A DNA stretch of 64,000 bases. It comes from Pectobacterium polonicum. GTDB taxonomy: Bacteria > Pseudomonadota > Gammaproteobacteria > Enterobacterales > Enterobacteriaceae. Both the position numbers and the translations under genes were made by a program. Shown one piece after another: positions 10,565 to 14,835 of the stretch (its first letter is position 1; each line of letters starts with the position of its first letter). Below the pieces are notes generated by a model that saw only the letters and a program-made list of their open reading frames with translations, searched no databases and had not been told where the DNA came from. The stretch lies in the NCBI RefSeq assembly GCF_005497185.1, contig NZ_RJTN01000002.1:372001-436000 (forward strand), given 5' to 3'.

Positions 10565-10569
10565 CCTTA

Positions 10570-10760
10570 TATACCCTAAATAATTCGAGTTTCAGGGCAA
10601 AACGTTAGCGTTTTGAACGACGCAAAGCGTTGGCTCCGAAGGGGTGAGGCCACAAGGCAGATTTGAACGCTGCTTGCAGCGGCCCCAACGGGACGAGGCA
10701 CACGCCAGTGTGCCGAGTTGCGCGGCCAACGCACATGCAACTTGAAGTATGACGGGTATA
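10570..10760 (+). repeat. dispersed palindromic element, copy A (expanded)
   Basis: Begins TATACCCTAAATAATTCGAG and ends CAACTTGAAGTATGACGGGTATA, the termini shared with four other places in the window (copies B-E). The 127-bp core form seen in B and D is enlarged to 191 bp here by internal sequence around GCAGATTTGAACGCTGCTTGCAGCGGCCCC that recurs in copy C. It looks like a non-autonomous MITE-like element with inverted ends; no coding capacity. Confidence 0.8.
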
Positions 10761-10787
10761 TTGCGGCAGTGCAGACTGCCGCAACAC

Positions 10788-11078
10788 TCACCCTGCCGGA
10801 CAACTGCCATTCATCAGCGATTGCTCGCTACAGCGCTTGCCATTGGCTAACTGACAGGCTCCCACGCTTGCACCATCAAGCTGCCTGGAAACAGCCATCG
10901 TCCCACCAATCAGCGTACAGTTAACGTCAATCGGAGAACTGCTTTTCAATAGCACGGCTACACTTTCATCATCATTTTGCGTGGCTTTTTGTTGGGTAGC
11001 CGCCGTACTTTCACTATGATTGCTGCATCCCGCCAGCAACAACGCAGCAGCAGTACATAACCATGGCAATACTTTCAT
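10788..11078 (-). CDS. ydbJ: DUF333 lipoprotein YdbJ
   Basis: Small predicted lipoprotein, 96 residues. Signal sequence MKVLPWLCTAAALLLAGC has lipobox LAGC with Cys18; a low-complexity S/T/Q linker follows, then the DUF333 domain with its paired cysteines (VNCTLIGGT, GACQLANGKRCSEQSLMNGSCP). Function of the family is unknown. I start at 11078 rather than at the longer in-frame start at 11132, because only the shorter form begins with a signal peptide, and GAGGCC stands before it. Convergent with ldhA as in E. coli (where hslJ lies between). Confidence 0.85.
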   Translation of the reverse strand: MKVLPWLCTAAALLLAGCSNHSESTAATQQKATQNDDESVAVLLKSSSPIDVNCTLIGGTMAVSRQLDGASVGACQLANGKRCSEQSLMNGSCPAG

Positions 11079-11761
<683 letters not shown>

Positions 11762-12034
11762 ATGTCAGATCAACTTCTTGGTGGATGGACTGCTTTCCGC
11801 GATTTGAATGATGCAGATAAAGCGCTTTTTAAATCTACCGTACATCTGCTGGGTGTAGATTACTCCCCTTTGTTTGTCGCAACGCAGGTGGTGTCCGGTA
11901 CGAACTACTCTTTTCTGACAAAAGGCACGGTAACATCTCCAGATGCACCGTTAAAAATTGTCAAAATCCACATTTATAAACCACTAAGTGGCGATGCGCA
12001 CATTACTAAGATCGAAGAAGTTCTGCCGCAATAA
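11762..12034 (+). CDS. stefin/cystatin-like protein
   Basis: 90-residue protein, no signal peptide. It carries the hallmarks of type 1 cystatins (stefins): a glycine pair near the N-terminus (LLGGWTAF), the first inhibitory hairpin QVVSGTNYSF (residues about 42-51; stefins have QVVAGTNYY), and a second hairpin at VKIHIYKPLSG (stefins LKVFKSLPG). Those three segments form the wedge that blocks papain-like cysteine proteases. A bacterial copy could target host plant cysteine proteases or an internal protease, but with no Sec signal its export is unproven. Shine-Dalgarno GAGGTGAAATA precedes the ATG. It is monocistronic, with its own strong terminator, in AT-rich DNA between repeat copies B and C. 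Family assignment is from motif reading only. Confidence 0.75.
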   Translation: MSDQLLGGWTAFRDLNDADKALFKSTVHLLGVDYSPLFVATQVVSGTNYSFLTKGTVTSPDAPLKIVKIHIYKPLSGDAHITKIEEVLPQ

Positions 12035-12048
12035 TATATAAGCAAAGA

Positions 12049-12095
12049 GATGACACTACGGCTAGATTATTTCTCTAGCCGTGGTGTCATCTTAT
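12049..12095 (+). terminator. terminator of cystatin-like gene
   Basis: 18-bp stem, 12049-12066 (GATGACACTACGGCTAGA) with 12074-12091, one T-G wobble, 7-base loop, followed by TTATAATT. The stem is long; there is no pure T-run. Confidence 0.65.
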
Positions 12096-12230: not shown

Positions 12231-12504
12231 TATACTCCAAATAATTTGAGTTTCAGGAAGGCGGCAAGAGAAGGACAAATTCGTCGGGAACGAATTTGAC
12301 CAGCCAAAGGCTGGCCTTCGGTGAGAGACAGGATGTCTCTCATATAATCCCAATGAGCTTACTTAGGTAAGTGATTCGGTGACAAATCTGTCGGAAGCAG
12401 ATTTGAACGCTGCTTGCAGCGGCCCCAGCGGGGCGAGGCACACGCAAGTGTGCCGAGTAATGAACGCGGCCAACGCACATGCAACTTGAAGTATTACGAG
12501 TATA
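12231..12504 (+). repeat. dispersed palindromic element, copy C (largest form)
   Basis: Termini TATACTCCAAATAATTTGAG and CAACTTGAAGTATTACGAGTATA. At 274 bp it combines the core (GAAGGCGGCAAGAG..., AATGAGCTTACTTAGGTAAGTGATTCGG) with extra modules: short palindromes such as CAGCCAAAGGCTGG and GAGAGACAGGATGTCTCTC, two forms of GACAAATTCGTCGGGAACGAATTTG, and the GCAGATTTGAACGCTGC block shared with copy A. It ends five bases before the next gene's stop codon. Confidence 0.8.
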
Positions 12505-12509
12505 TATGC

Positions 12510-12878
12510 TCAGAAAACCAGTAACGCAAAGACTATAATAAACCCATTAAAGATCGCCGAGATTCCCACTATCACACAACCAGCAGCCAAAATACGCAGC
12601 AGAAATATCTTAACCTCTCCTGATAGTTTCCGCGTCAGACGCCAGAATCCCATGCCAATATTAGCGACATAAATGCCATAAAAAATCATAGCGGCTATCG
12701 CAAGGTATCCCATACTAACACTGCCGTCTGTAATATATGTGGCTAAAATATGATCGATAACAGCCAGAAGCAACGCAATAGCAAGATGCCCAAATGTACC
12801 TTCTACGCCGCAGTCTCCACGCGCAATCTTCGCCAGCCAGTGGTGACTTTTGATATTTTCTGAACGAACAAAAATCAT
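12510..12878 (-). CDS. orphan inner-membrane protein
   Basis: 122-residue hydrophobic protein I do not recognise. Predicted membrane segments at about 28-48 (FGHLAIALLLAVIDHILATYI), 55-77 (MGYLAIAAMIFYGIYVANIGMGF) and one or two more in 90-121, separated by a short basic loop (RLTRKLSGEVK) that suggests a cytoplasmic side. The N-terminal 25 residues (MIFVRSENIKSHHWLAKIARGD) are soluble. Shine-Dalgarno AAGGA six bases before the ATG supports translation. It stands alone between repeat copy C and ttcA and has no E. coli counterpart at this position. No function can be proposed. Confidence 0.6.
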   Translation of the reverse strand: MIFVRSENIKSHHWLAKIARGDCGVEGTFGHLAIALLLAVIDHILATYITDGSVSMGYLAIAAMIFYGIYVANIGMGFWRLTRKLSGEVKIFLLRILAAGCVIVGISAIFNGFIIVFALLVF

Positions 12879-14715: not shown

Positions 14716-14835
14716 AAAAAAAAGCCGACAAAACTGTCGGCATGGTGTGAATCAATTGTGCTATGCAGTAATTCAAAAAAGGAAGTAAGACAATATGGAG
14801 CGCAACGCCCATCGCTTGACGTTGCATTCACCTGC
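14716..14835 (-). ncRNA. fnrS: FnrS, anaerobically induced small RNA
   Basis: Read on the minus strand from 14835, the first roughly 90 bases (GCAGGTGAATGCAACGTCAA onward, including the GCGTTGCGCTCCATATTGTC seed region) match E. coli FnrS as I remember it almost base for base. The 3' end is the stem GCCGAC/GTCGGC followed by eight T residues. The E. coli gene occupies the same place next to zntB (ydaN). FnrS is an Hfq-dependent repressor of mRNAs for aerobic enzymes (for example sodB, maeA, gpmA) under FNR control. The ORFs that overlap it are shadows. Confidence 0.93.

Follow-up and report, generated by a model that had tools for sequence, protein, structure and literature searches.

Stefins, the type 1 cystatins (MEROPS I25), are proteins of about 100 residues whose one domain combines the cystatin fold with a Q-x-V-x-G motif and an N-terminal glycine, with neither disulfides nor a signal peptide. 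In the sections of Kordis and Turk (2009) considered here, stefins are recorded from 17 bacterial genera including 'Erwinia (Pectobacterium)', horizontal transfer is argued, and inhibition of host proteases is proposed (PMC2784779); a 2012 review states, in the part cited, that more experimental data on bacterial stefins are needed (PMC3594739). Bacterial inhibitors of plant papain-like proteases include Cip1 and SDE1 (PMC12485229), the latter from Liberibacter (PMC5928222); in the cited parts of the former paper these are not called stefins, and their likeness to the protein discussed below is by description only. Here we analyzed a 64,000-nucleotide stretch of the Pectobacterium polonicum genome (hereafter the window; contig NZ_RJTN01000002.1, positions 372,001 to 436,000) and focus on a plus-strand open reading frame (ORF) with an ATG start at 11762..12034, which is a real, selected Pectobacterium gene and whose 90-residue product is supported as a stefin-type cystatin by its motif, predicted fold, profile matches, and lack of cysteine.

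Since genus members as a rule have a single stefin locus, the window gene is likely the stefin listed in 2009. The preliminary description of this DNA, which had proposed a stefin homologue and plausible effector, is thus a rediscovery that was correct in kind, as both Pectobacterium stefins and host-protease inhibition are already found in PMC2784779. Beyond the 2009 account, the present data place the gene in its genomic site, show purifying selection on it, and reveal that 4 of 25 genomes contain broken copies, one of these genomes having a second, divergent copy as well; they also identify a stem downstream of 13/13 intact copies and a relative carried by a conjugative plasmid of Bradyrhizobium. 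The finding is sound and testable, the kind of protein being already known: since this protein is small and strongly conserved and belongs to a tractable pathogen, experiments can ask directly what bacterial stefins inhibit. Among the papers listed by title-and-abstract searches of the open-access literature, none was a functional study of a Pectobacterium stefin, which does not prove that none exists.

A Conserved Gene for a Stefin-Type Cystatin

The ORF lies beyond chance because it recurs intact, at 89-100% identity, in 13 of 25 genus genomes (window genome counted), because its pooled ratio of nonsynonymous to synonymous proportions (pN/pS) is 0.094 over 78 pairs (13 intact genus copies, 11 distinct proteins, 89 codons), and because profile and fold link it to cystatins. 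Synonymous divergence (dS) from the window copy is 0.27-0.83 among the intact Pectobacterium copies, and purifying selection acts strongly on the protein sequence in the genus. The start codon is preceded by a ribosome-binding site, GAGGTG at 11751..11756 (plus strand), identical in 12 of the 13 intact copies and AAGGTG in the remaining one. A search of the P. polonicum genome with the 90-residue protein returned the ORF itself as its sole match. The AT-rich setting reported previously is borne out by guanine-plus-cytosine fractions of 0.44 for the gene and 0.25 for the upstream 300 nucleotides versus 0.515 for the window.

The three stefin sequence elements appear in the order first described, with Gly-Gly at residues 7-8, QVVSGTNY at 42-49, and PLSG at 74-77. 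In an alignment of 26 bacterial relatives, the Gly7-Gly8 pair of the N-terminal glycine segment (11780..11785, plus strand) is changed in 6 rows, and the Trp9 that follows it is kept in 26/26. The first hairpin loop, QVVSG (residues 42-46; 11885..11899, plus strand), is placed by the structural model between strands 34-43 and 47-55, and its Q42, V44, and G46 belong to a Q42-x-V44-x-G46-x-N48 pattern that is invariant across relatives down to 29% identity; Tyr34, like Trp9, is invariant beside the motif. The second loop, PLSG (residues 74-77; 11981..11992, plus strand), falls between strands 66-73 and 80-88, with P74 present in at least 90% of the rows.

A profile built from these 26 rows and compared with solved structures retrieved the cystatin superfamily in 19 of 20 matches, with a best expectation value (E) of 2.7e-5, and the 90-residue protein alone reached solved cystatins at a best E of 0.0011. 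The AlphaFold2 model, with a predicted local distance difference test score (pLDDT) of 80, features the cystatin fold with a helix packed on a beta sheet, and its closest structural matches are stefins and cystatins, in agreement with the fold anticipated in the preliminary description. Fold, Q-x-V-x-G motif, Gly7/Gly8, a length of 90 residues with neither cysteine nor signal peptide, and kinship to solved cystatins are accordingly the stefin features found in the window protein. It shares its predicted fold, Q-x-V-x-G hairpin, and single small domain with eukaryotic type 1 cystatins (Fasciola 6i1m, CsStefin-1 5zc1, and human stefin B 1stf), to which it is 15-26% identical in structure alignments, and differs from them by a GGW sequence at the glycine segment, which is unusual for eukaryotic stefins; 6i1m is titled as secreted. 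The bacterial stefins covered in the cited sections of PMC2784779 are the same kind of protein; the table there, as far as cited, has none in Alphaproteobacteria, whereas one is found here on a Bradyrhizobium plasmid. Among viral data, PHROGs gave no match for the window protein and only weak, unnamed matches for some of its relatives (best E 0.015), a phage search returned no match for the stefin, and the comparison with viral structures yielded none at E <= 0.001, a cystatin-domain protein of Catovirus matching weakly (E 0.036).

Predicted Inhibition of Proteases of Other Organisms

By analogy with stefins, the Gly-Gly segment and the QVVSG and PLSG hairpins would together plug the active-site cleft as a wedge, and a single-domain type 1 cystatin of this kind would be predicted to act as a reversible inhibitor of papain-family (C1A) cysteine proteases. 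That the cystatin fold here serves some purpose other than cysteine protease inhibition is quite improbable: fetuin-B, latexin, SQAPI, and monellin, which have the same fold and which we take to serve other roles, do figure among the structure matches, and the invariant Trp9 and Tyr34 stand alongside the motif, but a noninhibitor would have no need of an inhibitory-hairpin Q-x-V-x-G kept in 26/26 rows.

As for the protease engaged, searches of the P. polonicum genome for PF00112, PF03051, and PF01640, the three papain-like peptidase families of clan CA that were covered, gave no match, and the target is therefore likely an external protease. It probably lies outside the cell and belongs to a plant, a predator, or an insect vector. 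The same genome result, together with the finding of PF00112 in 0/14 Pectobacterium carriers, speaks against a regulator of the bacterium's own cysteine protease, an alternative we regard as very unlikely even though the N-terminus implies a cytosolic protein and C1 peptidases rise above the cut-off in 2 of 24 carriers, both outside the genus.

We propose that the protein would be synthesized in the cytoplasm and get to its target through lysis or a non-Sec route, and that this target would be another organism's protease, most likely the papain-like proteases that plants secrete into rotting tissue or that are released there. A stefin that inhibits the C1A proteases of other organisms, most likely plant papain-like ones, after such an exit is, on balance, the probable reading. 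Plant papain-like proteases fit the Pectobacterium lifestyle, and other bacterial inhibitors, namely Cip1 and SDE1, attack them. A more elaborate scenario can be offered tentatively, in which a true stefin of unrelated bacteria, sometimes carried by mobile DNA, undergoes loss and regain in a necrotrophic plant-pathogen genus and, as a signal-less inhibitor leaving the cell by lysis or some other route, disarms plant papain-like proteases; if true, this would give a bacterial stefin whose target and role are shown.

Alternatively, the same inhibitor could shield the bacteria when they are engulfed or eaten by amoebae, nematodes, or insect vectors, by acting on the digestive cathepsins of these consumers. 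Release of a cytosolic protein on lysis would suit such a role, as would the lack of a Sec signal, the patchy presence across genomes, and the relatives in Aureibacter tunicatorum and Persicobacter, for which no plant link is stated; the cited sections of PMC2784779 also propose self-defence against host proteolysis. Strong selection in a plant-pathogen genus, however, fits plant targets equally well, and we consider this alternative rather unlikely.

Several observations weigh against an exported inhibitor of plant C1A proteases. In 13/13 intact copies only three codons separate the ATG from an upstream in-frame stop, which agrees with the preliminary description in leaving no room for a Sec signal, and there is no indication of export; 12 of 25 genus genomes are without an intact copy of 89-100% identity. 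The peptidase search was confined to the three families named, its PF01640 control was weak (1/14 genomes, none over the cut-off), and a C1 peptidase exceeded the cut-off in 2 of 10 carriers of other genera (24 carriers searched in all). As to the stefin assignment itself, Pfam and NCBIfam scans of the 90-residue protein gave zero matches, the gathering cut-off of PF00031 (Cystatin domain) not being reached by it, and only 3 of the 26 rows match PF00031, at a best E of 0.044. Several of the profile matches in the PDB cover the first hairpin alone (about 20 positions), Foldseek returned a single match at E <= 0.001, and the first 17 structure-match rows have template-modeling scores of 0.31-0.66 with root-mean-square deviations of up to 18 Å; the model was built on 7 near-identical sequences, and the five models scored 63.9-80.3. 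The missing PF00031 match is a limit of one model and no biological feature of stefins, the Pfam cystatin model overlooking this bacterial stefin group: of the cystatin hits expected at the outset, those from the Pfam model failed to appear and those from the 26-row profile did. The effector proposal likewise divides, in that an inhibitor aimed at other organisms is likely, given the three absent peptidase families, whereas a specifically plant-directed effector finds no support in a signal-less protein with housekeeping-like neighbors, patchy presence, and relatives in bacteria without a stated plant link.

Distribution within and beyond Pectobacterium

A stefin match is present in 17 of the 25 genus genomes and absent from the other 8. 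Beside the intact copies described above, broken copies occur in 4 genomes: G012, G022, and G003 hold broken or partial copies only, those of G012 and G022 being alike, and G015 combines one broken copy with an intact, divergent one (56%) elsewhere in the genome. This second copy lies near a RepL match (E 0.00067, just under the cut-off) and genes for DUF6387 and DUF4756 proteins, surroundings that look like an island. Nine named loci emerged from the first search, seven of them from Pectobacterium, including a broken one in P. versatile. The other two, from Solitalea (L009 and L010), were dropped as chance matches inside a 176-codon reading frame, which presumably encodes a protein resembling ribosomal protein L10.

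In a sample of the bacterium's own family, 14 of 295 genomes, including three from Pectobacterium, have matches at E <= 0.01. The order sample gave matches at E <= 0.001 in 33 of 394 genomes, of which 17 are weak and 16 strong (E < 1e-20), the strong ones comprising 11 from a single genus, g187, and three from Pectobacterium; from the 2009 list, we assume Aeromonas and Vibrio to be among the genera. The 14 weak matches that were translated (L061-L074; E 5e-6 to 7e-4) are cystatin-like proteins that share GGW or GGx and Q-V/I-V-x-G-x-N-Y motifs with the window stefin but, unlike it, carry a signal-like N-terminus in 14/14 cases, 13 of them with what by eye is a lipobox-like cysteine. A phylum-wide sample of 398 genomes searched at E <= 1e-4 returned only three genus genomes, all already found; the family is therefore sparse outside the order, or its relatives lie beyond the reach of this profile.

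Plasmid searches with tblastn produced three records, from Persicobacter, Aureibacter, and a conjugative plasmid of Bradyrhizobium diazoefficiens. The Bradyrhizobium relative (L043, 4989-5258) sits amid transposase genes, and the Aureibacter tunicatorum protein (L044, 2980-3543), encoded on a 615-kb plasmid, has two tandem stefin domains. Left out of alignment A1 were a match in G153 (L041, E 0.005, internal stops), the identical copies L017 and L018, duplicate genomes, broken copies, and the later order-sample loci. Because the protein tree is mostly unresolved, with 17 of 27 inner branches open, no transfer history was drawn.

Expression Signals, Flanking Repeats, and Genomic Site

Downstream of the stop codon, a terminator-like stem-loop at 12047..12093 (plus strand) folds at -35.0 kcal/mol with a z-score of -9.24, and a folded stem occurs 3' of the stop in 13/13 intact copies, the shuffle comparison referring to the window stem alone; a scan for consensus terminators found none, so the terminator described initially stands as a structure and not as a consensus match. 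The promoter region claimed for the gene, in turn, draws no support from a consensus scan, which gave 3 sites versus 3.6 expected and no excess over shuffles. The leader is partly conserved and contains a tentative small hairpin of 6 pairs at 11695..11718 (plus strand), in which 92.3% of the cells are paired and 5 of 13 sequences have one pair altered on both sides; as many covarying pairs are attained, however, in 411 of 500 shuffles, and the fold of the window leader is not more stable than those of its shuffles (z 0.14).

The gene is flanked on both sides by related repeat copies in opposite orientations, as originally reported: an upstream one at 11364..11491, which we take to be ERIC-like, and a longer downstream one at 12231..12505. 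Their arms are 89-94% complementary, and a third related copy lies within 10569-10761. Inside the downstream copy, at 12374-12470 on the plus strand, Rfam RF02902 (Aggregatibacter small RNA [sRNA] 22) matches at 44.7 against a cut-off of 39.8, and may represent a repeat element instead of an sRNA.

Family scans of the ten ORFs between 5995 and 19141 identified by Pfam a 2-hydroxyacid dehydrogenase, a DUF333 protein, a PP-loop protein, a CorA-type transporter, and chemotaxis receptors; we presume the dehydrogenase, PP-loop, and transporter genes to be ldhA, ttcA, and zntB. No secretion or effector family was found among these ten, which look to be of chemotaxis, metabolic, tRNA-modification-like, transport, DUF333, or other housekeeping types. 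The DUF333 gene (10788-11132, minus strand; E 2.1e-12), whose product has a lipobox-like LLAGC, adjoins the stefin gene. In the stretches compared, 12 of 13 intact copies have ldhA and/or the DUF333 gene upstream, and 7 of 13 also show ttcA downstream, 1.5 kb or less of downstream sequence having been compared for five others. In G011 neither ldhA nor the DUF333 gene is found within 1.5 kb of the stefin, and in G004 (L007) the 5 kb downstream contain neither ttcA nor zntB, so that the right flank differs.

Six of the eight genomes without a stefin have the DUF333 gene followed by ttcA with nothing stefin-like between them, two of these with a 122-residue ORF in between; in the remaining two ttcA is found, and ldhA and the DUF333 gene were not seen in the stretch compared. 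Loss and gain are indistinguishable for these eight. The window carries the 122-residue, membrane-like ORF at 12510-12878 (minus strand), with no Pfam or NCBIfam match above the cut-off; some of the genus stretches contain it, and others having both flanks do not. Farther downstream, at 14720-14835 on the minus strand, lies a 126.4-bit match to Rfam RF01796 (frnS, the fumarate/nitrate reductase regulator sRNA). In the record of Pectobacterium sp. PL152 (L004), ldhA, the DUF333 gene, ttcA, and zntB are each split into several tblastn pieces, which suggests sequencing errors, and the stefin gene is whole.
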